Part shown: positions 8,601-27,704 of the stretch, piece after piece | Numbering within the stretch: position 1 is the stretch's first letter | Layout: each line of letters begins with the position of its first letter | Assembly: GCA_903879715.1 (NCBI GenBank) | Contig: CAIRMR010000143.1 | Coordinates: forward strand, 1 to 37,707 | DNA length: 37,707 nt | Direction of reading: 5' to 3' | From: an uncultured Bacteroidales bacterium | GTDB taxonomy: Bacteria > Bacteroidota > Bacteroidia > Bacteroidales > UBA4417 | Notes under the pieces: model-generated | What the model was told of the DNA's origin: nothing | The model's database searches: none | The model's input: only the letters and a program-made list of their open reading frames with translations | Made by a program: the position numbers and the translations under genes

Positions 8601-10673
8601 TATAAATACAAATGTAAAGACGGCGGTTATAAGCTTATAGAGCTTACGGCCACCAACCTGATAAATAACCCGGTAATAAAGGGGATATTGCTGAATTATC
8701 ATGATATAACTGAGCGTAAACAGGCCGAAGATGAATTGCGCTGGAATCAGTCGCTTCTGAGCTTTATGTCGAGTGCGTCGCCGTTAGGATTTTTAGTAGT
8801 TGACAACCGTACAGATGACATACTGTATTTTAATCACAGGTTTTGCGAAATATGGGAAATACAGCAACTGGAAGATCAAATGAAAGGCGGCGAACTTAAA
8901 AACAATGACATAATACCCTATTGTTTGCCGGTGTTGGCCGATGTTCCGGCTTTTGCCGAATCGTGCAAACCATTGCAATACGAAGATAACCGTGTGGTGG
9001 TCGAAGATGAGATAGCATTTACCGAAAACCGGACCGTGCGGCGTTTTTCAACCCAGATACGCGGTACTAAGGACGAATATTACGGGCGGTTTTATATTTT
9101 CGAAGACATCACCAAACGCAAACTTTCGGAGGAGGCATTAAAGGAGAGTGAAACAAGATTTTCATTGTTTATGGATTATCTGCCTGCCGTAGTTTTCATG
9201 AAGGACTATAAAGGGAAAACGCTTTTTGTTAATAAATATATGGATGAAGCCTTTGGTGCAAGCGCATGGATGGGCAAAAACATGTTGGAAGTGTTTCCGA
9301 ATGAAATTGGTGAAAAACTGATGGCTGATGATATTAACTCGATGGAGGCGGGTTATCAGAAAATTGAAGAAAGCCTGATGCAGCTTGATGGCAGATTGCA
9401 TTATTACGAAACACAAAAGTTTATTATTGAGAGATCGGGACAGGAATCCTGGTTGGGAGGTGTTTCGTTGGATATTACGGATCGAAAACTTGCAGAAGCA
9501 GAAATTCTGAAAGCAAAAAATGAAGCGGAAAATGCCAATCATGCCAAAAGTGAATTTCTCTCACGCATGAGTCATGAACTACGTACCCCAATGAATTCGA
9601 TATTAGGTTTTGCCCAACTTATGGAGATGATTGAAGTAGAAGAGGCAAACAAAAAAAGGTTAAATCATATACTGACAAGTGGGAAACATCTGCTTAATTT
9701 AATAAACGAAGTACTCGACATTGCCGGAATCGAATCCGGCAAGCAGATTTTGATGATTCAACCTGTGTTACTCAGCGGTATTCTTGATGAAATAATTGAT
9801 GTTGTACAGGTTGCAGCCAACAAAAAAAATGTAACGATAAAAATTGAGGATCCACCATCGACCCATATTTATGCCCTGGCCGACCAGCTACGAATAAAGC
9901 AGGTATTACTCAACTTAGTCAGTAACGCCATAAAATACAACAGGGAAGATGGTACAGTAACTATAAAAGCAGAGTTGCAAGCGAAAAACAGAGAGGGCAA
10001 TAATACGGTCAGGATTTCGATAAGTGATACCGGAACAGGAATTCAAGCTGATGATATCAGCAAGCTATTTCAACCTTTCGAACGTATAGGAGCAGCCAAA
10101 ACCGGAATAGAAGGCACAGGGCTAGGACTTATGGTGGTTAAGAAATTTACTGAAGCGATGGGAGGTGGAGCCGGAGTTGAAAGTGAACCCGGTGTGGGAA
10201 GTACATTCTGGATTGAATTGCCACAAACGGATATAACGGATCATTTTAAAGGTCAAAAAGCAGACGGAGACCAACAAAATGAAATACAGAAGGATGGAAA
10301 GGTAGCAACTGTACTGTATATAGAGGATAATCTTTCGAACATCGAGCTGGTTGAGGAAATATTGAAGGCTTACCGAACTTCGATAAAACTGGTAACATCC
10401 ATTTATGGGAAACAAACTGTGCAACTGGCAAAGGATCACCAAGCCAAGTTCATATTGCTCGATCAGGATTTACCAGATATAAAGGGGGATAAAATAATGG
10501 AAGAGTTGAAGGCTGATAAGGAAACAAAAAATATACCCGTAATAATGGTAAGTGCGGATGCCATGCCACAACAAATTGAAAAATTGATAAAAACAGGTGC
10601 TGCAGCGTATTTAACAAAACCACTTGATGTGGTTCAATTTCTGAAAATAATTGATCAGTATAGTGAGATTTAA
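2664..10673 (+). CDS. Giant hybrid histidine kinase, ~17 PAS + HK + REC
   Basis: A 2669-residue cytoplasmic sensor kinase with no signal peptide or membrane segment. After a coiled-coil start (with LHQIELELQNEEL near 75-90) about 17 PAS domains follow, each ending in a DITERK-type linker: near residues 101, 224, 350, 484, 621, 744, 869, 992, 1117, 1232, 1358, 1513, 1643, 1775, 1905, 2030 and 2163. The HisKA domain has H2304 in SHELRTP; the ATPase has N2421 (NLVSNAIKYN) and GTGLGL; the terminal receiver has D2600 (LLDQDLP) and K2652. The usual cascade is His-to-Asp transfer within the protein and on to a partner. PAS 13/14 and PAS 8/10 are clear internal duplications. It is the only kinase of the window on the plus strand and stands alone, so partners are unknown. 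The frame is intact over 8 kb, which argues for selection. Confidence 0.95.
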   Translation: MNMQDKSMEELIVELRELKQKYDSLERMYASEIAGRDIVNRDNYRANAEELQRQRSLASGTITTEVDILKLNQELQLHQIELELQNEELRLVSNSLHESESQYKSLFIDNHSIMLLIDPTTGEIKDANKAACQYYGWSYAEICNKNISEINTLGPTELEETLQVAKTEKRKHFFFNHRLSSGEVRKVEVYSGLILVENTTMLYSIVHDITDRETAEEKLKLSEEKYRNIFETMLDAYYEAGLDGKLMDISPSIESISKGQYKRDELIGKTIDEVYFDFTEKEAFFNELNKYGKVTDYELALKNKDGSVVPVSISSGLIRDKEGKPVKIAGTIRDISARKLSDERLIENEEKYRVLFESMIMGVVYQNAEGFITVANPAAERILGLTLSQMQGLTSIDPLWKSIHEDGSDFPGETHPSMVSLRTGEEVRNVVMGVFNTTQSAYTWIKINAVPQLQEGEKKPIQVYTTFEDITERKLADDALKESELRYRNLANSGQALIWTATPDKKCDYFNQVWLDFTGRTKEQELGDGWVEGIHPEDLDRCLSIYTNSFDLRKSFSMDYRLRHHDGSYRWLQDDGKPRYNSHGEFIGYIGHCLDITERKQAVEKLDEKRKELAIANNQLTLAQQIGHTGSWTYNLKTRKLKGSIESLKLFGLGDNLENFTTENVESCIPERERVVQASYDLLKKGIPYNLEYEIHPADGSPTRIITSKSEIKNDDEGNAVELFGVFQDITERVHVEQTLKNNEEKFRAITEQTRDLIAISDEKGFIVYASASSMLIFGISPEDMVGKNFIEFVADPDTSRAMADFNNLMGHGGIIQDIEFRMKRNDGTTFIGELTGSNFNTGIENGVLVTIRDISERKLAEEALIASEEKYRLLFYNNPQPMWIYDIETLAFLEVNQSAISHYGYSRPEFLNMTLKDIRPAEEIPALLKDIELSINNMNSQSEWTHLRKNKEFIVVEVTAQSLVFNGRSARHVLINDITERKKAEESFKKLSQAVEQSPVMTYITGISGLIEYANPKVIEITGYSIKELLGQNPRIFSSGEKSREEYQILWQTINAGKDWRGEFHNKKKSGEYYWVSATISPITDTHGKIMHYLATEQDITDRKYAEENIKQQNDRLNAIISAMPDLIFVIDKEGTYTEFFYANPLVLPIPESDIIGTNLSDFFGIAKAGEYLQYIHTCIRDKKLITYEYAVPEEHGLHYFEARIAPYGKDKILSVVRDVTVNKEKETEVKKLSLAVSQSPVSIVITDTRGDIEYVNPAFELATGYKFEEVKGKNPRVLKSGKMEEAIYRELWESITGGKEWHGEWINKKKNGEFYWEEISITPVYGKNGEISNYLAVKQDITQRKQSEKALKESEEKYHRDLVLLESIFNSPIKIIIFSIDKDYCYTKFSVSHKETMKKIWGVDIQIGMNMLDLITNPEDRKKAKNNFDRALNGDFYILTEEYGDKEFARIYYDNYYNPINDDEGNIIGISVFVLDVTERKQAEFEIVKLNTNLELTVNTRTAQYKEALGRLEKIADRVPGVVYQFQMNPDGSTCFPFSSEGIREIYRVSPEEVIEDASAVFANLHPDDFESVKKSIQDSANKLELWQYEYRVKFEDGTIRWLSGNGMPQREADGSVLWHGFISDITERMQVEAELTIEKQRLDLIITGNHLGTWEWNVQTGETIFNEQWASLIGYTLEEILPINIKTWRLLTHPDDLKNSDRLLEKHFKGKSEDSYSCETRMKHKNGTWVWILDRGKVHTWDKEGKPLIMSGTHLNINALKHAEEELANEKQRLASILEGTNVGTWEWNVQTGETVFNESWAEIIGFTLEEISPVSIETWMKFAHPDDLKVSGELLDKHFKGEMDYYAFESRMKHKDGNWVWVLDRGKVHEWDTEGKPLLMSGTHQEITERKDAEEALKASEIKHSTMISNISDVIGIVGIDGIIKYKSPNIEKFFGWHPSDLIGLDGWQTVHPDDLERIQNEFFSLTDQAAKTVEYKYKCKDGGYKLIELTATNLINNPVIKGILLNYHDITERKQAEDELRWNQSLLSFMSSASPLGFLVVDNRTDDILYFNHRFCEIWEIQQLEDQMKGGELKNNDIIPYCLPVLADVPAFAESCKPLQYEDNRVVVEDEIAFTENRTVRRFSTQIRGTKDEYYGRFYIFEDITKRKLSEEALKESETRFSLFMDYLPAVVFMKDYKGKTLFVNKYMDEAFGASAWMGKNMLEVFPNEIGEKLMADDINSMEAGYQKIEESLMQLDGRLHYYETQKFIIERSGQESWLGGVSLDITDRKLAEAEILKAKNEAENANHAKSEFLSRMSHELRTPMNSILGFAQLMEMIEVEEANKKRLNHILTSGKHLLNLINEVLDIAGIESGKQILMIQPVLLSGILDEIIDVVQVAANKKNVTIKIEDPPSTHIYALADQLRIKQVLLNLVSNAIKYNREDGTVTIKAELQAKNREGNNTVRISISDTGTGIQADDISKLFQPFERIGAAKTGIEGTGLGLMVVKKFTEAMGGGAGVESEPGVGSTFWIELPQTDITDHFKGQKADGDQQNEIQKDGKVATVLYIEDNLSNIELVEEILKAYRTSIKLVTSIYGKQTVQLAKDHQAKFILLDQDLPDIKGDKIMEELKADKETKNIPVIMVSADAMPQQIEKLIKTGAAAYLTKPLDVVQFLKIIDQYSEI

Positions 10674-12563: not shown

Positions 12564-14906
12564 TTAGGTTTTAGGGCTATTTTTAAAATGATTCATTACC
12601 ATGTTCTTAAGAGATGCAATAGTTATCGGTTTAGAAATATAATCGTTGCATCCGCTTTCAATTGCCTTTTGCTTATGGCCAGGTAAGCTAAACGCTGTTT
12701 GCGCAATAATAATAACGCTGCTGTTAAATTGACGAATCTGTTTGGTGGCTTCATATCCATCCGTACCTGGCATTTTCATATCCATCAGGATAATATCTAA
12801 ATCAGGGATGGTTCGGCAAATATCAATTGCTTCGTGACCCGACTGTGCGGTGAATATTTCTTTACTGTATTTTTTTAATACCAGGGAGAGTAAGAGCGAA
12901 GAAGCTTCGTCATCATCTACGATTAAAATTTTAAGGTTTTTTATTGAATTTTCATCAAACTCAACTGGCAATACTTTATTTATGATGCTTTTTTCTACGC
13001 TATTGCATGGAGTAGTAAAAAAGAATGTAGATCCAATACCTTCATCGCTTTCCACCCAAAGTTTTCCGCCAAGCATTTCTACATAGGATTTGGAAATCGA
13101 CAATCCCAGCCCGGCTCCCTGAAAAGCCCTTGTGTCAGCAATATCTGCCTGTACAAACCTATCGAAGATGGCAAGTTGTCTGCCTTTAGGGATACCTATG
13201 CCTGTGTCTTTAACATAAAATTCCAGCTCAGCTTCGGCAGGCTCAGCTACCGCAGCGATTTCGGAAACTGACGACTTGCCGGATGGTTTTAGGGTATATC
13301 CAAATTCTATTGAACCTTTATCGGTGTACTTAATAGCGTTTTTGACAAGGTTTGTGAGAATGGCATAGAGCTTCTCCCGGTCGGATTTTATAATAAACTC
13401 TTTAGATTCCAATCCATTTTTAAATAAAAATTGAATACCTTTTCTTTCGGCCTGGGGTTTTAAAAATGTATAAATGAATTCGGTTTGCTGATGAATATCA
13501 GTTTCTGTAATATTTAGCAGCATCAGGCCTGCTTCGATTTTGGAAATATCGACAATATCGTTTATAATATTCAGCATACGGTCGCCACTCTTTTTAATAA
13601 TTCCAATATATTCCTGCTGCTGATCACCTGAAAGATCCGGCTTTTTAAGCAATTCGGCAAAGCCAAGAATACCGTTCATTGGTGTACGGATTTCGTGGCT
13701 TATATTAGCCAGGAAAGCTGATTTTAACCGATCGCTTTCAATGGCTTTCTCTTTAGCTTTGATCAATTCGGCTTCATTATTTTTTCTCTCGGTTATATCC
13801 TGAAAAATCTCCAGCAATGCTTTGTGGCCCATATACATCATACCTGTGTGGCTGATTTCAAAAATCCTTCCGCCCAGTATTCTATGAGATTCGTAAACTC
13901 CGGTATTACCTATTGTAATTCCTTTTAATAGAGGACATTCAGTACATTGTTTTTTATCATCACGATACAAATCCCAGCATTTACTGACTCCTTGTTGTTC
14001 CCCTGTAAGCTGTTTAAGATTTTCACTTTGAAAGAGAATAGTACCAGTTTCATCAACTATGTCCATTCCGAAAGGAATTGTATTCAACAGGGATTCGTTG
14101 AATTCGTGACTTTGATGCAATAATTGTTCTGCATTTTTACGTTCAGTAATATCGCGTATGCTGCCAATAATATGTTCAGGACTGCCCTGGGAATCAAAAG
14201 TGATCTTAGCAGAGATTGAACCTATAATAAGTGATCCATCGCGATTGGCAAGCGTGATTTCATAATCTGTTATTGTTCTTTTCTCCTGAAGTTCAGCAAG
14301 AAGAGCCTGGCGCTCCAGCGGGTAATTGTAAAAATCAAACAATGATTTACCAATGAGTTCATTACGGTGGTATTGACCCTGCGACATTATTTCAATAGAT
14401 GGACTGACTTCCAGGATTGTGCCATCAAAAGATGCTTCATAAAACACATCATGAACATTTTCGAATATTTTCCGGTATTTTGCGTCACTCTCCCGTAATT
14501 CTTTTTTAATTGATTCTTTTTCCTTGTGTATTTTGATTTTATTAATGGAGTTGTGCACTGCAGGACCAAGGCGTTTTAAATTTTCTTTAATTACATAGTC
14601 GGAAGCACCGGCTTTCATACACTCAACGGCAATTTCTTCGTTCATGGATCCGGTTACCAGGATAAACGGTGTAGCAGGAGTTATTTCATTAGCCATCTTC
14701 AGGGCCGCCATTCCATCAAACTGGGGCAGGGAATAATCAGAAATTATGATATCGGGATTGAAGACCTCAAGGGAACTGAGGTAGTCATCGCTGTTATCAA
14801 CCAGCTTTTTTGAAAAAACGATATTATTTTTACTGAGTTCCCTCCAAATGAGTTCAGCATCGCTTTTTACATCTTCAACAAAGAGGATTTTCAGAATGTC
14901 TTCCAT
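12564..14906 (-). CDS. Hybrid histidine kinase REC-PAS-PAS-HK-REC
   Basis: A 780-residue cytoplasmic protein. An N-terminal receiver (D57 in IISDYSLP) is followed by PAS 1 (about 141-255), PAS 2 (about 262-385), HisKA (H404 in SHEIRTP), ATPase (NLVKNAIKYT near 520, DTGIGI, GAGLGLSI) and a second receiver (D709 in LMDMKMP). The front receiver lets it take phosphate or signals from another kinase, the rear one lets it pass phosphate on. PAS 2 carries C310, C321 and C324 (CWDLYRDDKKQCTECP), a pattern that could bind metal or sense redox. It lies 71 bp behind the CheY-like gene of the kai cluster. The kinase core is closely related to the protein at 30081-32921. A short repeat-derived peptide (AVAEPAEAE) sits in a loop of the ATPase domain. 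Confidence 0.93.
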   Translation of the reverse strand: MEDILKILFVEDVKSDAELIWRELSKNNIVFSKKLVDNSDDYLSSLEVFNPDIIISDYSLPQFDGMAALKMANEITPATPFILVTGSMNEEIAVECMKAGASDYVIKENLKRLGPAVHNSINKIKIHKEKESIKKELRESDAKYRKIFENVHDVFYEASFDGTILEVSPSIEIMSQGQYHRNELIGKSLFDFYNYPLERQALLAELQEKRTITDYEITLANRDGSLIIGSISAKITFDSQGSPEHIIGSIRDITERKNAEQLLHQSHEFNESLLNTIPFGMDIVDETGTILFQSENLKQLTGEQQGVSKCWDLYRDDKKQCTECPLLKGITIGNTGVYESHRILGGRIFEISHTGMMYMGHKALLEIFQDITERKNNEAELIKAKEKAIESDRLKSAFLANISHEIRTPMNGILGFAELLKKPDLSGDQQQEYIGIIKKSGDRMLNIINDIVDISKIEAGLMLLNITETDIHQQTEFIYTFLKPQAERKGIQFLFKNGLESKEFIIKSDREKLYAILTNLVKNAIKYTDKGSIEFGYTLKPSGKSSVSEIAAVAEPAEAELEFYVKDTGIGIPKGRQLAIFDRFVQADIADTRAFQGAGLGLSISKSYVEMLGGKLWVESDEGIGSTFFFTTPCNSVEKSIINKVLPVEFDENSIKNLKILIVDDDEASSLLLSLVLKKYSKEIFTAQSGHEAIDICRTIPDLDIILMDMKMPGTDGYEATKQIRQFNSSVIIIAQTAFSLPGHKQKAIESGCNDYISKPITIASLKNMVMNHFKNSPKT

Positions 14907-14977
14907 GATTTTTAGTATTAATTAATTTATGCCAGCATTATTTCCAGAGAAGTCATGCCAAGAGAATTGTAAGTCAC

Positions 14978-15421
14978 TTATTTTGGTGGCTGATTTACAA
15001 GCAGCCAATATAAACCAAGCCTGCTCATGGCAATACTGAACTGATCGAAATCAACGGGTTTCACTACATACCCGTTTGCTCCAAGATTATATGCGGTTTG
15101 AATGTCAGGCTCCTCGGCCGATGAGGTTACCACCACAACCGGTATGTGAGATGTGCGTATATCTTCCTTGAGAATTTTAAGTATTTCAAGCCCGTTTACT
15201 TTTGGCAGTTTCAGGTCGAGCAGCACAATTTTGGGAGGATATAAAATATCCCGGTGAGCATATTTTGCTCTGCAAAAAAGAAAATCTAGGGCAATTTCCG
15301 AATCGCTGAGCACCAGCAAGTGATTTGCAAGGTTGTTTTTTTTGAGTGCCCTGATTGTCAGTTCGGCATCGCGGGGATTATCTTCTACAAGAAGAATTTC
15401 AACTGCATTAAGATCTTCCAT
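14978..15421 (-). CDS. Rcp1-type CheY-like response regulator
   Basis: A 147-residue stand-alone receiver with VEDNP acidic pocket, phospho-acceptor D69 ([12 protein letters not shown]), T99/S100 switch region and K121 (VVKPVDF). The insert between strands ([12 protein letters not shown]) is typical of the Rcp1 group, which pairs with phytochrome-type kinases having a SHDLRAPL phospho-site. The kinase gene directly upstream (77 bp) has exactly this site, so the two are the likely cognate pair. It has no output domain; it may shuttle phosphate to the hybrid kinase next door. Confidence 0.93.
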
Positions 15422-15498
15422 GGCAAATTAATTTAATTTGTTTGACAATTATGTTAAGATACAATGAAACTTACCAGCGAAACATTTTTTGAATTGTT

Positions 15499-18400
15499 TT
15501 ACCGTGACGTGTTTTCAGATGGTAAACTAAAAAAAAAGGTTGCGCCTTTCCCAATTTCACTTTCTGCCCACACTTCACCAGCATGTTTTGAAATAATCCT
15601 TTGAACCATTGCCAGGCCAACGCCATTGCCTTCAAATTCGCTTTCAGTATGAAGTCGTTGGAAAACTCCAAAAAGCTTATATCCATATTGCATGTTAAAA
15701 CCAACTCCGTTATCCTTGATGAAATAAGTTATATGATCGCCTTCCTGCCTGGACCCTATACTTATTTCTGGTGTTTTTTGCTTCGACGAGTATTTGATCG
15801 CATTGCCAATCAGGTTATTCCATACTATTTTTATCAGGTTAAGATCGCAGGACACCTTGTGTAAATCTCCTACCTTTAACACAATCCTCTTTTTAGCATC
15901 TTCATCGGTGAAATCCCAATATACTGAGTTGGCGACAGATTTCATATCAATTATTGCGGGTGTCATGCTGCTTCGGCCTATCCTGGAAAAATTAAGCAGA
16001 TCATCAATTAGCCGTCCCATTTGTGATGCGCCTGATGAGATTATGCCGCAAAGCCTTTTGCCTTCATCATCCAGAATATCGCGGTAATCATCGAGTAAAA
16101 TATTGGAAAATCCCTGAACGGCGCGCAGGGGTGCTCTAAGGTCGTGCGACACGGAGTAACTGAATGCTTCGAGTTCTTTATTAGCTTCATTAAGCTGCCC
16201 GGTACGTTCGATTACACGTTGTTCAAGTGTTTCGTTTAGTTGCCTGATTTCTGCTTCCGCCTGCCTGCGCTCCGTGATGTCCAGGGTCGAGCCGATATAC
16301 CGGATGAGTTTGCCGTCCTGGTCGAAATTCGGCTCGGCACGTTCATACACCCACCGCACACTTCCATCGGGCCTAATGATCCTGTGTTCAAGTTCATAAA
16401 CAGAACTACTTTGAATGGCGGCTGTGAAGGTCTTGAAGAGCAGGGACGAATCGTCAGGATGTATACAATTTGCCAGCAGTACGTCAAACGTGGGTGAAGG
16501 CTCCGTTGGGTCTAATCCGTAAATTGAGTATTCCTCTGCTGACCACAACGTTGAATTAGTATCTGCCAAGTACTCAAATGTGCCCATATGTGCAATCTTC
16601 TGGCCCTCATTCAAGATGAATTCCATCTTCTTTAAGACTTCCTCCGCATGTTTACGTTTGGTGATATCGTTAAATGTGACAACTATATGTTCTAATGTTC
16701 CATCATTATGTAGCTGTGGCAGTGCACCGACTAATAACCATCTACGATCATCAATTGTGGGATTATAAACGCCCATTATAACATCTCTGACCGGAAGAAG
16801 TGTTTCAATTGCCTGGAAAACGGGATGGGTTTTACCCGGAAAGGGTGAACCATCCTCGTGAATAACATTCCAGCCAGGATCTAACGAAGTCTTGCCCAAT
16901 ATTTGATCTTCAGTCATTCCAAGCAATTCAAGCGCCTTGGGATTACTCAATACTATTTCGGACTTTGGCCCATGGATCAGCACTCCAACCTGCATATCAG
17001 CGACAAGATTTTTAAATTTGTATTCGCTTTCGCGCAATGCCGCCTCTGCATGTTTGCGTTCGGTTATATCATTAATAAGAGCCAGAAAGTAACTGGTCTT
17101 ATTTTCTTCATTCCGGAAACAGCGAACTGCAAGTTCTGTATAAATTTCTTCACCATTTTTTCGAATAAATCGCTTATCAATTTTATAGCCTTCAATTTCA
17201 CCATTCAAAACCTGATCGAAATATTTGATATCAACGTCAATATCATCAGGATGAGTAAGATCATCCCATGTTTTTTGCATCAACTCTTCCCTTGTGTAGC
17301 CTAAAAAGCCGCAAATAGTATCGTTTACCTCTATCCATGTCTTATCAACAGAAGTAATCGCCATACCTAATAAACCAAGTTCAAAATAACTGCGTAAACG
17401 GATTTCGCTTTCTTCCGCAAGTTTTCTGGCTTTTAACAATTCATCCTCCGCCAGCTTTCGTTTGGTAATATCACGGTTTACGCTCACATACCCACTTATC
17501 TTCCCATCGTTATCGCGAATTACTATAGATGATACTTCCACCGGAAAGCGGCTTCCGTTTTTTCGTATCTGTACAGCTTCTCCGATCCATCGGCCGATTT
17601 CTGCGATATTACGCCTCATAAGTTTGGCAGTTGTAAACGGGAATTCTGTTTGTATGATCTGAATCCCATGTTTTCCAAGCACTTCTTCGGCTTTCCATCC
17701 GTACGTAAATTCAGCAGCTTTGTTCCAATGAGTAATTACAAAGTTCTCGTCGGAAGCAATAACAGCATCGTTTATATTTTCGAGCACGAGCGAATGATAG
17801 GCCAGTTGTTCTTCGGTATGCTTACGGTCGGTAATATCGATACTCATGTTGGCGTAATGATCGGGGTCAAGCAAAAAAACTGATGACAGATAAGTTCTGT
17901 CGTTGATTTCGAAATAGGACTCGAAAGTAATTGGTGTGCCGGTTTTAATTACCTGGCGGGCAACCTGAAAATAGGGCGCCATTACCTGTTCACCGAAAAG
18001 GGCAAGTACACGTTTTCCTATAGCAGCTGCCTTTTCAAGTCCAATGCTTGAAGCGCCCATTTCATTAATGGCGCTGATTTCCCAATCCACTATTTCTCCT
18101 GAATTATCGCGGATGAGTTTGTAAATTACACCATTAAAAGGCGCCTGGCTCAGGAGTGCCTCGAAACGAATGGAACTCTTTTTTAATGATTCTTCCGCCA
18201 ACTTTCGCTCGGAGGCTTCTCTGACTAATTCATCATTTTTTACCTCTAAAATATTTTTTGCCTTAACCAGTTCTTCCGATAGTCTTATAGTAGCTTCTTG
18301 CTGGAGGACTAAGTCTTCGATGGTTTTATATAAATCGGAGGTTCTTTCGGACACCTTTTGCTCTAACAGGGCATTTAAATTGATCAGCTCTTCTTCCTGG

Positions 18401-18915
18401 CGCTTTAACTCCGTAATATCTGAAAATATAATACATACCCCGTTTTGAATAACTTCGGGCAGTACACTGATCGAAAGTCGCAGATTTAATATATGACCGT
18501 TGTTCTTTATATAAACTAACTCGCCAACGCTTTTGCCGCTGAGCCCGGTTTTAAATAATTCGAGAAAATTCGGTACTTCACTTTCATGGAGTAAATTAAC
18601 GAAGTAAGTGCCAATTATTCTTTCATAAGGTTCCGAAACAAGTTCCGCAAAGCGGGCATTGCAATACGTGATTAATCCATCTTTGGTAAGGGTAATGGCT
18701 CCTTCGTACATCTGTTCAATAATAATACGGTACTTGGTTTCAACAGAAGTAAGAGAATAAATGTTATCCCCATCCACTCCTGAAACAACAATTGCATCAA
18801 TTTCGCCATTATGTATCGAATTTAAAGTTTCTTCAAGTTCATACACACGCCGATGCAATTCTTCGTTTTCAAGAAGCAACTGTTTCTCTGTAAGCCGTAT
18901 TTTATTACTTTTCAT
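15499..18915 (-). CDS. Six-PAS histidine kinase, phytochrome-type core
   Basis: A 1138-residue cytoplasmic kinase. The start at 18915 is chosen because AAAGGA lies about 10 nt before this ATG; an earlier ATG at 18948 would add 11 residues. An N-terminal coiled coil is followed by six PAS domains (beginning ETKYRIII, IRFEALLSQ, SLVLENIND, EIRLRSYF, YKFKNLVAD and FILNEGQK), long helices such as LEQKVSERTSDLY between PAS 1 and 2, and LNETLEQRVIERTGQL before the HisKA domain. The phospho-accepting His is in SVSHDLRAPLRAVQGFSN (H924 from this start). The ATPase has NLIGNAIKYS and GNGVGLAM. There is no receiver; the Rcp1-like regulator downstream is the likely partner. The gene follows kaiB by about 40 bp, so it is probably co-transcribed with kaiBC. 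It has no KaiB-like SasA domain. Confidence 0.93.
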   Translation of the reverse strand: MKSNKIRLTEKQLLLENEELHRRVYELEETLNSIHNGEIDAIVVSGVDGDNIYSLTSVETKYRIIIEQMYEGAITLTKDGLITYCNARFAELVSEPYERIIGTYFVNLLHESEVPNFLELFKTGLSGKSVGELVYIKNNGHILNLRLSISVLPEVIQNGVCIIFSDITELKRQEEELINLNALLEQKVSERTSDLYKTIEDLVLQQEATIRLSEELVKAKNILEVKNDELVREASERKLAEESLKKSSIRFEALLSQAPFNGVIYKLIRDNSGEIVDWEISAINEMGASSIGLEKAAAIGKRVLALFGEQVMAPYFQVARQVIKTGTPITFESYFEINDRTYLSSVFLLDPDHYANMSIDITDRKHTEEQLAYHSLVLENINDAVIASDENFVITHWNKAAEFTYGWKAEEVLGKHGIQIIQTEFPFTTAKLMRRNIAEIGRWIGEAVQIRKNGSRFPVEVSSIVIRDNDGKISGYVSVNRDITKRKLAEDELLKARKLAEESEIRLRSYFELGLLGMAITSVDKTWIEVNDTICGFLGYTREELMQKTWDDLTHPDDIDVDIKYFDQVLNGEIEGYKIDKRFIRKNGEEIYTELAVRCFRNEENKTSYFLALINDITERKHAEAALRESEYKFKNLVADMQVGVLIHGPKSEIVLSNPKALELLGMTEDQILGKTSLDPGWNVIHEDGSPFPGKTHPVFQAIETLLPVRDVIMGVYNPTIDDRRWLLVGALPQLHNDGTLEHIVVTFNDITKRKHAEEVLKKMEFILNEGQKIAHMGTFEYLADTNSTLWSAEEYSIYGLDPTEPSPTFDVLLANCIHPDDSSLLFKTFTAAIQSSSVYELEHRIIRPDGSVRWVYERAEPNFDQDGKLIRYIGSTLDITERRQAEAEIRQLNETLEQRVIERTGQLNEANKELEAFSYSVSHDLRAPLRAVQGFSNILLDDYRDILDDEGKRLCGIISSGASQMGRLIDDLLNFSRIGRSSMTPAIIDMKSVANSVYWDFTDEDAKKRIVLKVGDLHKVSCDLNLIKIVWNNLIGNAIKYSSKQKTPEISIGSRQEGDHITYFIKDNGVGFNMQYGYKLFGVFQRLHTESEFEGNGVGLAMVQRIISKHAGEVWAESEIGKGATFFFSLPSENTSR

Positions 18916-18955
18916 CGGGTTGATCCTTTGCAAAAAAAGATGAATCAAATGTTGG

Positions 18956-19300
18956 TCATGTTTTTTTTAAATCGAGCCCGACGAGTAAGCGTTCGGTGCC
19001 CGACAGATCGCCTATTATGCGGCGCAGGGGAAGAGGAAGTTTTTTTATAAGCGTTGGCGCGGCAATAATCTGTTCGCCTGTGGCTAACTGTGGGTTCTGG
19101 TAAAGGTCTATCACTTCAAGATCATAACGCCCCTTAAGATGGTCCTCACAAATAGTTTTTAAATTTGAGATTGCACGGATAGATTTTGGCGTCATTCCGG
19201 CTATGTATAACCTCAAAATGTATTTCTCACTATTCGAATCCCCAAGCGCTGATTCAAATTGATCGGTGGAATATTCTATTTCCTTAATTTTTTTTTTCAT
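18956..19300 (-). CDS. KaiB-family protein, second copy
   Basis: A 114-residue KaiB homologue with an N-terminal extension of about 25 residues. The thioredoxin-like core starts at YILRLYIAG; IAAPTL and the RRIIGDLSGTERLLVGLDL block are conserved. G108 and D110 match the glycine and aspartate (G88, D90 in Synechococcus) that govern fold switching. The acidic C-terminal tail of cyanobacterial KaiB is missing; it ends LKKT. Its role would be to bind the KaiC CI ring and so gate downstream kinases. It is 19 bp behind the first kaiB, and the six-PAS kinase gene follows at once. It differs from copy one at many positions, so the pair is not a recent duplication. Confidence 0.92.
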   Translation of the reverse strand: MKKKIKEIEYSTDQFESALGDSNSEKYILRLYIAGMTPKSIRAISNLKTICEDHLKGRYDLEVIDLYQNPQLATGEQIIAAPTLIKKLPLPLRRIIGDLSGTERLLVGLDLKKT

Positions 19301-19319
19301 CGCCGTTCGTAATTAATGT

Positions 19320-19664
19320 TTATTTAAACCTCGGCAGCAGGTCTAAGCCGATAAGCACCCTTTCGGTATTAGAAAGATCGCCAATGATTTTCTTTACCGG
19401 TTCGGGTAATTTGCGAACCAGTGTGGGGATGGCAAGTATCTGGTCATCCCTGCCCAGTTGCGGATTAAGTAAAAGATCAATTACTTCTATCTGATACCGG
19501 CCATTTAATTGTTCCTCACAAATAATTTTGAGATTTTTAAAAGCAAGCAGAGCTTTAGGTGATTGCCCGGCAACGTATAAACGTAATACCCAATTTTCCA
19601 AATCGGGTAATGAAGTAATTTCCTGATTATCATTAATTTTAGTATTTTTTTTAGACGCGCTCAT
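19320..19664 (-). CDS. KaiB-family protein, first copy
   Basis: A 114-residue KaiB homologue lying directly behind kaiC (49 bp). After a polar N-terminal extension the core runs from [14 protein letters not shown] through [17 protein letters not shown] to [21 protein letters not shown]106 and D108 match the fold-switch residues of Synechococcus KaiB. It ends PRFK without the acidic tail. Of the two copies this is closer to canonical KaiB at the C-terminus (IGLDLL). It is expected to bind the CI ring of KaiC in its phosphorylated state. Confidence 0.93.
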
Positions 19665-19713
19665 GTAGTTCCTCCGTTGGCTTACAAAAATTATTTTTAT
19701 AAAGTTTGAAAAT

Positions 19714-21420
19714 TTAGTCAGTATCAGCTTTCCTGCTCATAGCCATATCGCGTTGCTGTAATAAAAAGGCTTTATTTCTTTCTTCTTCCAGATAAATCAT
19801 ATTGAGGGTTTCAATGCTTTCGGCCTCAAATTCTTCCTGCAATTCGCTTATTTTAGCGACCATAGCTTTGCGTTTGCGCTCAAGTGCCAGTTTCTTGCGT
19901 TCGGTTTCCTGCTGTCGTGATAATTGTTCTGAATATTCCTGTGCTTCTTTTGATATCCTGGCCGATCCTGTCAGCACCCCGTCAGGACCTACATAAACAT
20001 CAAGCAACTCGGCTCCGTTATCGGTGAGGATGTACTCGCGTATCTGATTTGAGTGAGCCATTCCCCGCGATTTAAGAATATGCAATCCACGGTTGCGTTC
20101 GCCACCGATTTCAATATCACGCAGAATCATCCATGTATCGATGAGCGATGATATGTTTATTTGCGTATGCTCAAGTTCAGAATTGGCTCCTGTAAGAGAG
20201 GTAAAGAAGCCGGTGATAGTATTCATTTTAAGAAAGTCAACCATACGCATGATCATCGACTTGGCTTCAAAATCGTTGGTACCGACAATAAAACTGCTGA
20301 TCGGATCAATGATTACGACTTCTGGTTTAAATTCATTAATCACTTTATGCATAAGTGTCAGATACGATTCCAGTCCAATAAAGGTTGGTCGGTTGGAATG
20401 AAATTTCATTAACCCGTTTTTCACCCATTGCTCATTGTCGATACCGATCGACCGCATATTCCGGATTATCTGTTGTGGCGATTCTTCCAGTGCAAAGTAA
20501 AGCACGCGTTCTCCCCGCTTACAGGCAGCGAAAGCAAAATGTGCGGCGAGGCTGCTTTTGCCGGTTCCGGCCGTACCCGAAACAAGTACACTGCTTCCAC
20601 GGTAGTATCCTTTGCCGCTAAGCATTGTATCGAGCCGCGGAATGCCACTCGAAATCCGATCGGTAGTAACCGAATGATTAAGACCTACCGAGGTTACAGG
20701 GAGTACTGAAAACCCGGTTTCATCAATCAGGAACGGATACTCGTTGGTGCCGTGAGCTGAACCTCTGTACTTAACAACACGCAGACGCCGTGTTGAAGTT
20801 TGTTCGGTTACGCGGTGGTCGAGCATAATAACACAGTCGGAAACATACTCTTCCAAACCCTGGCGGGTGAGCATCTCGTCTCCGCGTTCCCCTGTGATTA
20901 TTACCGTTACACCTTTCTCTTTCAGGAAGCGGAACAAGCGCCTGAGTTCAGCCCGGAGGATAAGCGTATTAGGAAGCCCTCCAAAGAGGGACTCTATGGT
21001 ATCCAGGACAAGTCGTTTTGCACCTATACTGTCGATTGCAAGATTAATACGGATTAATAATCCTTCCAGGTCGTATTCGCCGGTTTCTTCTATTTCACTC
21101 CTTTCGATATGGATATGTTCGAGCAGAAGCATTTTTTTTGCTGTAAGCTTATCCAGATCGAAACCAAGCGAGGCGACATTGGCCGTTAATTCCTTTTCCG
21201 TTTCCTCGAATGCCATAAAAACACCCGGTTCATTGTATTGAGTTGCACCACGCACAAGAAATTCCATAGCCAGGAGTGTTTTCCCACAGCCTGCGTTGCC
21301 GCAGATAAGGGTTGGCCTGCCTTTTGGTAACCCGCCACCGGTAATTTCATCCAATCCCTGTATGCCGGTAAGCGATTTAGGGAGGTCATTTTGCTTAGGC
21401 TGATCGTTAGCTTTTTTCAT
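19714..21420 (-). CDS. kaiC: KaiC clock ATPase/autokinase
   Basis: A 568-residue double-domain RecA-like ATPase, the central part of Kai timing systems; it forms hexamers with ATP between subunits. CI has Walker A GNAGCGKT (41-48), catalytic E72/E73 and D140; CII has GTAGTGKS (282-289), E312/E313 (LEESPQQ) and D372. S424 and S425 (ISSLIDTW) match the S431/T432 phospho-sites of Synechococcus KaiC, and T419 matches T426. The catalytic residues are all present, so ATPase and autokinase activity are likely. It is about 50 residues longer than the cyanobacterial protein: from residue ~490 a charged coiled coil replaces the KaiA-binding tail, as reported for Rhodobacter sphaeroides KaiC. No kaiA is in the window. 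The gene is 15 bp behind the CheY-like gene and leads the two kaiB copies. Confidence 0.97.
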
Positions 21421-21435
21421 ACTGCTTGCTGATTT

Positions 21436-21789
21436 TTAATACATTTTTAAAATCATATTAATTTTATCGAAGTCATCCGATTTGTTGAAAAAATAATCTG
21501 CGCCTAAAGCCATACATTTGTTTTTATACTGTGGATAGGAGTAGCTGGACAGGATGCACACTATGGTTTTAGCACCTTGCATTCTGAGTTTTTTAAGAAC
21601 CTGGATTCCATTCATGAGTGGCATACGTATGTCAAGGATAATCATATCCGGGTTTTTTTCACTGATGAGGGCCATCGCCTCGGCTCCGTTACTGCATTCG
21701 CCAATGATTTGTACATTTGAATGCTTTAGTGCCAGATTCCTGGTGCGTTCGCGGAAACCAGCCGAATCATCGGCGATTAATAATTTCAT
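21436..21789 (-). CDS. CheY-like response regulator heading the kai operon
   Basis: A 117-residue single receiver: acidic pocket D7/D8, phospho-acceptor D53 (IILDIRMP), S81 and K103 (FFNKSDD). It has no output domain. It is the first gene of the presumed operon and only 15 bp before kaiC, so it is probably translationally linked. Possible jobs are input to KaiC, or a phosphate sink for the kinases downstream. The local motif FNKSDDF is typical of the receivers of NarL-like regulators, but the protein ends there, with no helix-turn-helix. Confidence 0.92.
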   Translation of the reverse strand: MKLLIADDSAGFRERTRNLALKHSNVQIIGECSNGAEAMALISEKNPDMIILDIRMPLMNGIQVLKKLRMQGAKTIVCILSSYSYPQYKNKCMALGADYFFNKSDDFDKINMILKMY

Positions 21790-22393: not shown

Positions 22394-23023
22394 TTACTCA
22401 ATCAGCTTATTATTAATAGCATAGAATGTAAGATCTGTGTTTTTTTTCATACCCATTTTGCGCATTATCCGCAGGCGGTGAGTACCTACAGTTTTTTCGC
22501 TGATGAATAGGTCGCTGGCGATTTGCCGTGATGATTTTCCTTTAGCAAGAAGAATCATAATCTGAAATTCACGTTCCGAAAGTTTTAGATGTACTGTAAT
22601 TTCGAATTTGCTATCTAAGTTAAATGCCATATATTCGGCCAGTTCAGGGGAAACATATTTTCCGCCTCCGGATATTTTTCTAATGGCAGCAAGCAGTTCT
22701 TCCCCGGCTCTATCCTTGGTTACATACCCTAAAGCACCCAGTTTTAATGCCCGGATAGCAAACTGCTCCTCGGGATGCATAGAAAGGATAAGAATACGGG
22801 AAGTGATATTCAGAAGTTTTAAACTTTTGAGTATATCGATACCAGACATTCCCGGCAAAGAAATATCGAGTATTACAAAATCGTAAAAACTACTTTCGAT
22901 CATCTTCAGCGCATCGACCCCATTTGTTGCTTCTTCAACCTGCCCGATTTCCGGGAGTTTTTTCAGAATCTGTTTCAATCCTTCGCGGACAATAGTATGA
23001 TCGTCGGCAATGAGTATTTTCAT
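22394..23023 (-). CDS. NarL/LuxR-type response regulator
   Basis: A 209-residue DNA-binding response regulator. The start at 23023 (MKILIADDH) is preferred over an in-frame ATG at 23056, which would add 11 unconserved residues. The receiver has D7/D8, phospho-acceptor D53 (VILDISLPGMSG) and the switch residues around ILSMHPEE; the C-terminal HTH_LuxR domain reads LSEREFQIMILLAKG and SEKTVGTHRLRIMRKM. It activates or represses transcription after phosphorylation. Its natural partner is the HisKA_3-type kinase at 23847-27683, the only kinase of that class here; the two are in the same direction, separated by a GxxExxY gene and repeats. Confidence 0.93.
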   Translation of the reverse strand: MKILIADDHTIVREGLKQILKKLPEIGQVEEATNGVDALKMIESSFYDFVILDISLPGMSGIDILKSLKLLNITSRILILSMHPEEQFAIRALKLGALGYVTKDRAGEELLAAIRKISGGGKYVSPELAEYMAFNLDSKFEITVHLKLSEREFQIMILLAKGKSSRQIASDLFISEKTVGTHRLRIMRKMGMKKNTDLTFYAINNKLIE

Positions 23024-23149
23024 ATTATATGTTTTTAAGCCCCCTCCAAATCTCACCCGAATGGTGAGGTTTTAAAAAAGCAACACCTATATTTTGGTAT
23101 TTATAATCATTCTACTGTATGTATTCTGTAGCTAATAATTGTTTGATTA

Positions 23150-23246
23150 CTCTGCGGTTCTTTGCGTCTTCGCTGCGTAACTCTGCGGTAAAAAAAGGTT
23201 TAACCGCGGAGAACCGCAAAGGATTTACGCAGAGAGCCGCAAAGCT
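23150..23246. repeat. Long imperfect inverted repeat at the GxxExxY gene end
   Basis: Left arm 23150-23190 and right arm 23202-23246 share CTCTGCGGTTCTTTGCGT-like text in opposite directions, so about 40 bp can pair with mismatches around a short A/T loop. The right arm reaches the stop codon (23245-23247) of the GxxExxY gene. Similar sequence is at 22024 and 37058. Confidence 0.75.
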
Positions 23247-23622
23247 AAAGCTTGTTAACCAGTCTTTTAATTCCATCAACTACACGTAAAACATTGAAAT
23301 TCATCAATAAACCTAATTTACAACCAGAAAGTTTTAAGTAAGTTAAAACTTGTGCAATATGAATTTCGTTTAATGCCTCAACAGACTTTAGTTCGATAAT
23401 TACTTTCCCTTCCACTACCATATCTATACGGTAGCCAACATCCAGCTTAACTTCTTTATAAACTAATGGCAAAGACTTTTGCTTTTCAACATGCAAACCT
23501 GCCTTTTGTAATTCATAAAATAAACACTCAAGGTAAGCACTTTCAAGTAAACCGGGACCGAGAGATTTATGTACTTCAATGGCGCAACCGATTATCTTTT
23601 CTGAAATCTCATTCTCTATCAT
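23245..23622 (-). CDS. GxxExxY protein (PDDEXK_3-like nuclease fold)
   Basis: A 125-residue protein of the GxxExxY family (PF13366). The name motif is visible in GPGLLESAYLECL. A PDDEXK-like site follows: D in GYRIDMVVEG, then IIELKSVE (E-x-K), and a helix with HIAQVLTYLKLSG. The length is usual for the family. Its biochemical role is not established; the fold suggests nucleic-acid cleavage or binding. It sits between a kinase gene and its likely regulator gene, and its stop codon touches a long inverted repeat, so it looks like an inserted unit. No partner gene is seen. Confidence 0.88.
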   Translation of the reverse strand: MIENEISEKIIGCAIEVHKSLGPGLLESAYLECLFYELQKAGLHVEKQKSLPLVYKEVKLDVGYRIDMVVEGKVIIELKSVEALNEIHIAQVLTYLKLSGCKLGLLMNFNVLRVVDGIKRLVNKL

Positions 23623-23749: not shown

Positions 23750-23865
23750 GCTCCAGATTCCCAACTACTGCCTGCGTCGACAAGTGCCTCCTGCCTTCCA
23801 GTGCCTGATGGCACATGTCTTCCGCCTTGTGCCTCAATCCCAGTGCCTACCGCCTACTCAAAGGT
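23750..23865. repeat. GTGCC-rich repeat overlapping a stop codon
   Basis: Contains CTGCCTGCG, AAGTGCCTCCTGCCTTCCAG, TGCCTGATGGCACA and CAGTGCCTACCGCCTACT. On the minus strand the stop codon of the eight-PAS kinase (TAG, 23847-23849) falls inside GGCGGTAGGCACTGGG. The remaining part of 23623-23749 is AT-rich and holds nothing I can name. Confidence 0.55.
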
Positions 23866-26800
23866 ACGCTAACTGTTACCTCTGTTCCAACATTAATTTT
23901 AGTATTGATTTCGAATTTCCCATTTATCTGATTTGCTCTTTCACGCATACCGATTATGCCGAATGATTTTGAAGATTTGAGTTGCTCAGAGGTGATTCCA
24001 ATACCGTCATCAGTTACGGATAAATAAATTACATTTTCTTTGAGTTCCAGTTTAACTGAGATGGATTTTGCTTTTGAATGCAGCATTATGTTGGTCAAGG
24101 ATGCCTGGAAAATCCGGAACAGCGAAATTGCAATATTTTCGGCAATATCATCAATTTCTTCGAGGTCAAGCGTGCATTTTACACCGGTTCGTTTCCTGAA
24201 TTCGTTTGACTGCCATTCAATTGCGGAAGCCAGACCCAGTTCGTCGAGCATTTGGGGGCGTAATTGAGATGTTAATTTCTGAGCTGATTTGATGGTGGTT
24301 TCAACCAGGGAAATGGCCTTGTTAATTTTTGGTGTTTGACATACTTTATCATGTATATCCTCTTTAATCCCTAACAGGTCAATTTTTAAACCCGCAAGTG
24401 ATTGTCCCAAATCATCATGAATTTCACGTGCAATACTTGTGCGTTCTTCTTCGCGGACTTCGTTGAGATGCTTATAAAGTTGGGCTAATTGTTCTCTTGA
24501 TTCACTTATTTGTCGCTCTGCAATTTTTCGGTCGGTGATGTCGCGGATATTACACTGAATCACTTTCTGATTATTCACATAGTAAACATTACTGATAAAT
24601 TCAACGTGAATGGTTTGCCCATCTGCGGTTTCCAGTGGCAGATCTTCGTAACGGATATATTCTTTTTGTTGTAACTCCAGAAAGTTTGCTTTATTTTTAA
24701 TAACATCTTTGAAGGAACCAATTTCCCATATTTTCTTTCCCAGAAATACATCATGAGAGTAATACAGCATTGTAATCAGGAATGGATTTACATCAACGAT
24801 TATTCCTGTTTCCGCATCGAGTATGAGAATGCCATCTTTAGCCGATTCGAAAAGTCGGCGATAACGGACTTCGGATGCCGATATTTTTTCCTCCGATTTT
24901 TTGCGTTCAGTAATATCGTTTGCTATTGACATAACCGATGCAACTTTTGACTGTTCGAGTAACGGCACCAAATAACCTTCGTATGTACTTATTATGCCAT
25001 TGTGGCTAAGTGCATCATATTCGAACTGTTGAGTTTGTTGGCTGAGCCTGCATTCTTCAAATTTAGCCAAAAATGTTTCTCTTGATTTGTGAGCGATAAA
25101 GTCAACCGCTTTTTTACCAGAGATATCCTTTAATGAAAATCCTTCTGCAAAACGATTCAGATACTGATAGTTGCCATCAATATCAAGAATAGCTATAAAT
25201 TCGGGACTCGTATTTACAAGTTTTTGCCATATTTCTTCACTTTTCTGAAGGGATTGCTCTGCGATTTTACTTTCGGTGATTACTTCTGAAAAAAGGATAA
25301 TCCCACCGATTATACCATCAGTTTCGTACCATGGGCAGATTTCCCAACGAATCCAGTCTATCTTTCCGTTGGCTCGTGCAAAGGGGTCTTCCTCACACCG
25401 CTCCGTCATACCCGATAGGCAACGATTATGTATTGCCTTCCATCGTTCCGGGATTTCAGGAAATACTTCATAATGGGACTTCCCGATTAGATTTTGCCCA
25501 CCCAGATCATAGTCAATCAGGTAACGGTTGCTTGTGACAATATACTTCATATTGAGGTCGAACATGGCAATTGCTGCCGGAGAGTGCTCTACAAAAAGTT
25601 TTAGTATTGTCTCACTTCTTTTAATGGCTTCTTCTGCCAACTTGCGCTCAGTGATGTCGCGGCAAACAATTAACTGGCCTGTACTTGTCATGTTATCGTC
25701 CCGCAGGAGTGAAGAATTAACCTCCACCAAGATATAAGTACCATCCTTTCGAAGATACTGAACTTCTCCTTCCCAATAGCCATTATTAAACAACTTCAGC
25801 CTTTCCTGGTCGCGCGAGGAACCTTTGATTTTTGGGTTGAGCAATTCTCCCGAATTTTTGCCCACTGCTTCTTCTGTTGTCCAGCCGAACATCTTTTCTG
25901 CCGCCTGGTTCCAATAATTAATCCTGAAGTTGCAGTCACTGCTGAAAACTGCGTCATTTACTTCTGATAATAACCGAGCTTGAAACGCTAATTCTTCTTC
26001 TTTCAATTTGCGATCAGTGATGTCCTGAAAGAAACCGTAAACACGGCGCTGTTTAAAATCTGCTTTTCCAATGGAATGTACTTTTCTCAGATTTCCTTTC
26101 GCTGTTATTATTTCCAACTCTAAATCATAGGGTTCGCCGAGTTCCATTACCCGTTGAACAGCTTGTGCAATTATTGGTTTTGATTCATTCGTATAAAAAT
26201 TTATTCCCTCATCAACATTTGGATCGTAATTAAAATCAACTTCATGTATGTTATATACTTCATCTGTCCAGATCAGTCTCATTGTGTCTATGTTAAATTC
26301 CCAGCCACCGACCTTTCCAATAATCTCTGTTTCAGCCAATAATTGCTGAACCTTTTTTAATTGTTCCTCGGTATTCTTACGATCCGTTATATCGACAGAA
26401 CTGGATTGAATGGCAACATTATTGCCATTCTCGTCTTTCATACATTGATCAATAATGAAAAAAGCTTTCTGCTTTCCATTCAAAACAAATATATCCTCGT
26501 ACTCCCTATGACCTCCTTTTTCAAGAAGTGAATTATTAAATTCTAAATACTTTTGGGCAGTTTGTTGGGGTAAAAAGTCGAACAATGATTTTCCAATTAT
26601 TTCTTTGGGTGCACAGCCAAATTGTGTAGCGGATTTTTTGTTTACCATCAGAAATTTACCTTCCCTGTTGATAATAACAACACCTGTTCCTGAATTCTCG
26701 AAAAGCATCCGGTAGGATTTTTCACTCATGCGTAAAGCCTTTTCCGCGAGTTTGCGTTCTGAGATATCAAATACAAGACCTGTGACATTGAGCGGTGAGC

Positions 26801-27683: not shown

Positions 27684-27704
27684 TTCACTGGCGTTTATGA
27701 GCAA

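Follow-up and report, generated by a model that had tools for sequence, protein, structure and literature searches.

How does a Kai system that has neither KaiA nor SasA pass its state on to the cell? The question is raised by a gene cluster in a stretch of 37,707 nucleotides from an uncultured Bacteroidales bacterium (contig CAIRMR010000143.1; the whole stretch is called the window below), in which kaiC is followed by two kaiB genes and a PAS histidine kinase, HK1149. In the cyanobacterial KaiABC-SasA-RpaA system a KaiC with a double ATPase domain works with KaiB, and the output passes through a kinase. Outside cyanobacteria SasA and KaiA are missing. The window resembles the cyanobacterial system in its double-ATPase KaiC and its KaiB, and a kinase output is likely; unlike that system, it has no KaiA match and no kinase with a KaiB domain, and its KaiC carries Ser-Ser phosphosites and a long tail. 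Our data point to the N-terminal helix/beta-hairpin/PAS module of HK1149 as a candidate. We give a probability of about 0.5 to the reading that the cluster is a KaiA-independent KaiC2/KaiB hourglass timer with a dedicated signaling partner, in which this module would be the coupling element. The elements concerned, in positions of the window, are as follows.

19714 to 21420, minus strand: kaiC of the KaiC2 type, 568 residues, two ATPase domains and a long C-terminal tail (Pfam KaiC)
19320 to 19664, minus strand: kaiB of the position-1 lineage, 114 residues (Pfam KaiB and tree)
18956 to 19300, minus strand: kaiB of the position-2 lineage, 114 residues (Pfam KaiB and tree)
15499 to 18948, minus strand: HK1149, PAS histidine kinase, 1149 residues, with the ATG at 18915 as its likely start (Pfam)
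18400 to 18894, minus strand: N-terminal helix/beta-hairpin/PAS module of HK1149 (profile match and AlphaFold2)

The gene order was compared among relatives, defined as the best 80 KaiC matches in named genomes, picked by likeness to the window KaiC. By title these belong to Bacteroidota, Pseudomonadota, Chloroflexota, Nitrospirota, Planctomycetota, a Spirochaetia bin and others, and archaea such as Methanoperedens are also among them; the nearest are L013 and L014 (Bacteroidetes). At least two kaiB genes stand behind kaiC in 73 of 82 loci (the 80, the window and L093, a second cluster of the same genome). The other nine comprise four at contig edges (L014, L040, L070, L081), four with one kaiB (L051, L065, L088, L089) and L060, where no kaiB was found behind kaiC. 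The arrangement kaiC-kaiB-kaiB plus a signaling gene thus recurs in many phyla, more than expected by chance. The initial annotation of this DNA had staked its proposal of a Kai cluster wired to a phosphorelay on kinase or receiver genes being kept beside kaiBC in relatives, and a signaling gene does adjoin kaiBC there.

What these signaling genes share is the module. A profile of ~165 residues, built from 13 Kai-linked loci, showed that the module heads 72 of the 74 genes behind the last kaiB, with 124 to 239 bits for the best domain (59 of 61 without the 13 seeds). The two misses are in L089 and in L088, which has a module gene upstream of kaiC. The remaining open reading frames of the 5144 searched reach at most 38 bits for the best domain, except L057|17 (the gene after next), L088|7 and L060|29, all from Kai loci. 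In HK1149 the module scores 198.9 bits over model positions 2-165, directly behind kaiB. In Pfam and NCBIfam the module matched only general PAS models and PF24820 (Diguanyl_cycl_sensor).

The link to KaiB holds in larger samples, in which scoring was limited to the top 9 to 12 candidates of each genome. In a phylum sample of 296 genomes, the module (E ≤ 1e-25) occurs in 19 and KaiB in 27, and all 19 lie within the 27; at this threshold no module was found in the 269 KaiB-free genomes. All 20 module copies lie downstream of KaiB on the same strand, 18 of them within 80 base pairs (bp), and the two longest distances are 283 bp (G130, G234). Among 349 genomes of the phylum of G301 (L031, Betaproteobacteria by title), 36 have KaiB and 21 have a match at E ≤ 1e-12. 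In 10 of these the match starts at model position 10 or before (a contig end splits one), and KaiB is never more than 95 bp away; the 11 partial matches cover the PAS part only. In the window's order (393 genomes) the module is present in 13 genomes including the window's own, and KaiB lies directly upstream in 10 of the 12 others. The module is present in 29 of 30 genomes behind the studied loci, and 23 of the 29 carry a single copy. The window's own genome (6.07 Mb, 99.56% complete) contains 61 HisKA matches above the cut-off and two full-length modules (215 and 199 bits), both behind kaiC-kaiB-kaiB; its other 21 module matches cover the PAS part only, at no more than 43 bits.

The AlphaFold2 model of the module (mean predicted local distance difference test score 88.9) has a helix at 13-38, a hairpin at 44-57 and, from 61 on, a PAS fold; eight positions are invariant in 38 alignment rows. 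What follows the module varies. In 65 complete module proteins (E ≤ 1e-5; excluding seven genes truncated at contig ends), we found HATPase_c in 38, HisKA in 31, HisKA_2 in 5 and Response_reg in 20, together with GGDEF in 6, EAL in 6, a sigma-54 activator domain in 3, HD in 1 and KaiB in 1; the module protein of L019 carries HisKA_3. The module may instead be an input, its PAS domain sensing redox, oxygen or a ligand and setting or resetting the timer via KaiB or KaiC, with the C-terminal domains serving feedback. Foldseek matched the module model to PAS domains of many kinds, DosP, NifL, FixL and LOV proteins among them; in passages of PMC5520375 and PMC10931921 the R. sphaeroides kinase figures as a candidate relay of redox signals to KaiBC; and 16 module proteins are only 232-242 residues long, of which L025, scanned singly, contains PAS only. 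However, the conserved helix and hairpin outside the PAS fold suggest a contact surface more than a sensor, and the interchangeable C-terminal domains are what an output plug would be expected to have. We consider an input role unlikely.

Two further observations concern the tie between the kaiB and module genes. By simple start choice, the gap from kaiB to the module gene is zero or negative in 22 of 66 cases. In L050, the position-2 KaiB, the module and GGDEF-EAL form a single protein of 911 residues, whose KaiB part is 91% identical to the position-2 KaiB of L045; in the region of the kaiB stop and the start that follows, the L050 sequence is 20 bp shorter than that of L045, which is not a single-base frameshift. 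It could be argued that the cassette simply moves as a block, neighbors being kept together without functional contact. Its spread is patchy, with no module match at E ≤ 1e-25 in four same-genus genomes (G791, G888, G969, G1033), and it lies on Cereibacter and Pararhizobium plasmids; the cassette probably does move laterally. Three things speak against mere co-transfer: the module persists where the remainder of the protein has been swapped, genes overlap or abut, and the fusion keeps KaiB and module whole. We regard mere co-transfer as highly improbable.

The timer half of the proposal depends on the type of KaiC. The closest PDB chains to the window KaiC are 8dba, 8fwi and 8db3 (E 2e-196 to 3e-189), followed by the next KaiC chain at 1.6e-108 and by cyanobacterial chains at ~1e-97. 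By the organism names of the entries and PMC10076222, these three are structures of R. sphaeroides KaiC. Residues 14-563 of the window KaiC align with 8dba, tail included (up to residue 554), and our own alignment with the plasmid-encoded C. sphaeroides KaiC gives 53% identity. Ser424 and Ser425 align with the R. sphaeroides Ser-Ser pair, and each of the two columns has Ser in 79 of 83 KaiC sequences. In this set, chosen by likeness to the window KaiC, 83 of 83 have at least 77 residues from window position 490 on. Both ATPase domains have a Walker A motif and Glu pairs (72 and 312), which presumably play their usual roles. With its double ATPase domain, its Ser-Ser pair and a C-terminal tail ~50 residues longer than that of other clades, the window KaiC is, as judged from sequence, of the KaiC2/KaiC_RS (R. 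sphaeroides) type. Passages of PMC10076222 regard the long tail as characteristic of kaiC2 and report that R. sphaeroides KaiC autophosphorylates without KaiA, and PMC5520375 mentions a Bacteroidetes group whose Kai proteins are all KaiB2/KaiC2-like.

The initial annotation had treated the lack of KaiA as notable. Because the KaiC belongs to a KaiA-independent type, which phosphorylates itself without KaiA according to the same part of PMC10076222, this absence is expected here; the proposal of a KaiA-free timer type itself stands. The own genome gave no match at E ≤ 1 to the KaiA model PF07688, which need not detect KaiA3-like proteins. The KaiB model PF07689 matched above the cut-off only in four kaiB genes (two pairs of short open reading frames), leaving no SasA-type kinase by this measure. 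A fifth KaiB-like match (G000:C179:27635-27838, L012) lies below the cut-off with four in-frame stops, and is either chance or a remnant. The genome contains two full-length double-domain kaiC and four kaiB in two clusters; the second kaiC-kaiB-kaiB-kinase cluster, on contig C213 (L093), was absent from the initial annotation. That annotation had also concluded that, with no KaiB-like domain in either cluster kinase, coupling must differ in kind from that of SasA. Pfam bears out the premise and the conclusion was correct; for such coupling the module offers a concrete candidate.

The same parts may be read without a clock. KaiBC2 could be an ATP/ADP energy sensor or a stress switch, the kinases relaying the energy state, and the module could still be the coupling element. 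In its favor, metagenome bins make up, by title, the majority of the 80 relatives; on the other side, it uses the same parts as a timer, and sequence cannot separate timing from sensing. We regard an energy sensor as a real possibility, short of an even chance.

The two KaiB proteins of the proposed timer are both stand-alone (Pfam 87.5 and 90.5 bits against a cut-off of 27). On a KaiB tree with few columns and many open forks, positions 1 and 2 require 6 and 7 label changes, compared with ~53 in shuffles, and 29 alignment columns differ strongly between the two (total variation >0.55; 74 pairs). The N-terminal extension of position-2 KaiB has Phe in 47 of 74 and Glu in 44 of 74, and that of the window has Phe-Glu. 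Positions 1 and 2 are thus largely separate lineages. In L101-L103 (G048, G145, G201), a lone KaiB directly before the module protein scores nearly equally with both lineage profiles, possibly reflecting the state before the KaiB duplication. L115 and L116 show another layout, with a kinase and receivers, kaiB, kaiC and then a divergent second KaiB ~2 kb after the first, and without the module. A special pairing of the module with position-2 KaiB was considered and dropped, since KaiB type and module score did not correlate significantly in 16 hand-picked single-KaiB loci (rho 0.33, p 0.22; L088 was left out because its module lies upstream of kaiC). A special role of position-2 KaiB is weakly supported.

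We propose the following mechanism. By homology with the R. sphaeroides protein, KaiC would autophosphorylate on Ser424/Ser425 independently of KaiA, its state would track ATP/ADP, and phosphorylated KaiC would be bound and reset by KaiB. The two KaiB lineages may split roles, one turning the timer over while position-2 KaiB together with KaiC would be read by the HK1149 module. This reading would set the kinase activity of HK1149, which may pass phosphate to the receiver RR147; further output via HK780, REC117 and a LuxR-type regulator is possible. The timer half rests on homology, and the module half on genomic linkage, on conservation of the module with exchanged outputs and on one fusion. 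We infer the contact of the module with KaiB or KaiC, the split of KaiB roles, the direction from timer to kinase, the phosphotransfer and all kinetics. The KaiC tail is probably not the target of the module, because in L127, L128 and L129 the KaiC has 501-507 residues, too short for the long tail, yet is followed by KaiB and a module kinase.

Several results weigh against this mechanism. A second KaiB is not always needed, as the module accompanies a single KaiB in R. sphaeroides, L051, L065, L088, L101-L110 and L128-L130. KaiB genomes without the module make up 8 of 27 in the phylum sample (in two of these KaiB is partial) and 26 of 36 in the phylum of G301; the module serves only some Kai types. 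The lowest-scoring modules of the order sample, in L131 (G956) and L132 (G731), have no adjoining KaiB, KaiB elsewhere in these genomes not having been searched; they may be decoupled descendants. The neighbors of the L132 module kinase are a kinase, a 151-residue receiver and a 325-residue REC gene. The L050 fusion comes from one metagenome bin, and the predicted structure of this natural KaiB-module fusion is uninformative on docking (predicted template modeling score 0.47). In addition, the Fisher values of 5e-24 and 4e-11 ignore relatedness and so overstate independence; the profile was drawn from Kai-linked modules alone, and likeness to the window KaiC governed the choice of the 80 loci.

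The remaining signaling genes of the locus are listed below.

21436 to 21789, minus strand: REC117, stand-alone receiver, 117 residues (Pfam REC)
14978 to 15421, minus strand: RR147, stand-alone receiver, 147 residues (Pfam REC)
12564 to 14906, minus strand: HK780, hybrid kinase, 780 residues, REC-PAS-(unassigned)-HisKA-HATPase-REC (Pfam)
22394 to 23056, minus strand: NarL/LuxR-type response regulator (REC and GerE), 220 residues (Pfam and relatives L013, L014)
23847 to 27704, minus strand: HK1285, PAS kinase with HisKA_3 (Pfam and relatives L013, L014)

Open reading frame coordinates and Pfam place all seven genes named initially, from REC117 to HK780, on the minus strand, with matches to KaiC, KaiB (twice), REC, HisKA, HATPase_c and PAS across the cluster. 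The gaps between them are 15, 49, 19, 7, 77 and 71 bp; that of 7 bp, before HK1149, becomes 40 bp if the in-frame ATG at 18915 is the start, which is nearer to the starts of the relatives. A promoter and terminator scan gave counts near the shuffled means (36 against 31.6, and 14 against 11.2) and is thus uninformative on co-transcription. By Pfam, HK1149 has five PAS_9 stretches, HisKA at 927-991 with His935, and HATPase_c at 1037-1145.

Both kinases of the cluster had been taken as linked to kaiBC. This applies consistently to HK1149, through its N-terminal module, and loosely to HK780, whose supposed second PAS domain is unmatched by Pfam at E ≤ 1e-3. The kinase core of HK780 has nine paralogs at 53-67% identity in its own genome, including the Kai-linked kinase of L093, which rules it out as a Kai-specific kinase; several Kai-linked kinases in other loci resemble it. 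HK780 appears to be a general-purpose kinase of its genome.

The single receivers, likewise taken as parts of the system, fared differently. A REC-only gene lies directly upstream of kaiC in 4 of 71 cases, counting one LuxR-type regulator and one REC-PAS gene, so that the position of REC117 is rare; a 66.7% identical gene has the same place in L014 and is absent in L013. REC117 has Asp53, the acidic pair Asp7/8 and Lys103, presumably in their usual receiver roles. RR147, which we take to be of the Rcp1 type, as initially named, is in between: a REC-only gene follows the module gene in 12 of 59 loci, compared with 9 of 293 control genes. A 67% identical gene lies directly behind the module kinase of L071 (Nitrospirae), the kinase part of which is 56% identical to that of HK1149; next comes a REC-PAS gene, and a PAS-HisKA-REC kinase lies two genes further on, an order near that of the window. 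With His935 in the kinase, Asp69 and Lys121 in RR147, and recurrence of the pair in L071, RR147 is the probable phosphate acceptor of HK1149.

Because the LuxR-type regulator upstream of kaiC, missing from the initial annotation, is kept in L013 (83% identical) and L014 (73%), together with an HK1285-like kinase before it (49% over 457 residues with HisKA_3 in L013, 44% over 500 residues in L014), the Kai locus probably extends upstream past the limits first drawn. The small open reading frame between the regulator and HK1285 (23245-23622) resembles a GxxExxY protein. On the opposite strand, 2664-10673 encodes an apparently PAS-rich kinase of 2669 residues. As in part of the account of Synechocystis KaiA3-KaiB3-KaiC3 (PMC11372060), a receiver-type gene lies upstream of the kai genes; unlike KaiA3, REC117 is a receiver alone and the 220-residue regulator ends in a GerE DNA-binding domain, and this domain content rules out either as a KaiA3-like protein.

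The closest known counterpart is R. sphaeroides. On a plasmid of Cereibacter sphaeroides 2.4.1, kaiC, kaiB and an HWE kinase that starts with the module (77 bits) are adjacent, and a Pararhizobium plasmid has kaiC-kaiB-kaiB plus a module protein (155 bits); plasmid records with such genes number 10, from these two organisms. Like the window, R. sphaeroides has a KaiC2 type with Ser-Ser and a C-terminal tail and, directly downstream, a PAS kinase with the N-terminal module. It differs in having one KaiB, an HWE instead of a HisKA kinase, a diverged module and no annotated receiver gene in the 12-kb stretch examined. Passages of PMC4794148 and PMC6627678 had already noted a PAS kinase in the kai operons of R. 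sphaeroides and R. palustris; a term count in the main text of PMC10076222, the study of R. sphaeroides KaiBC, returned no histidine kinase. Already known, too, from parts of PMC3164672 (2011), is the context of kaiC-kaiB clusters followed by histidine kinase or GGDEF/EAL genes, and the window has the gene order of its first context, kaiBC then kinase. Those parts give no shared N-terminal module for the kaiBC group and assign the RtaNt module to kaiC-histidine kinase clusters without kaiB. Searches of the open-licence literature gave no description of the shared module or of the paired KaiB lineages.

Taken together, the conserved position of the module makes it a good candidate for the link between KaiA-free timers and the cell. 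More tentatively, KaiA-free KaiBC timers of bacteria and archaea might have a single plug in common, made up of a dedicated second KaiB and a module reading KaiC-KaiB in trans, with any output behind it. The outputs could then possibly be several histidine kinase classes, cyclic di-GMP (c-di-GMP) enzymes, sigma-54 activators, HD proteins or a free adaptor. The fixed place of the module, in R. sphaeroides as well, makes the question of coupling experimentally addressable, and from its output domains (phosphorelay, c-di-GMP, sigma-54) one could predict which process is timed in each species. If true, the shared plug would play the part of SasA in a split and modular form, and would give Kai systems outside cyanobacteria a general route of output.

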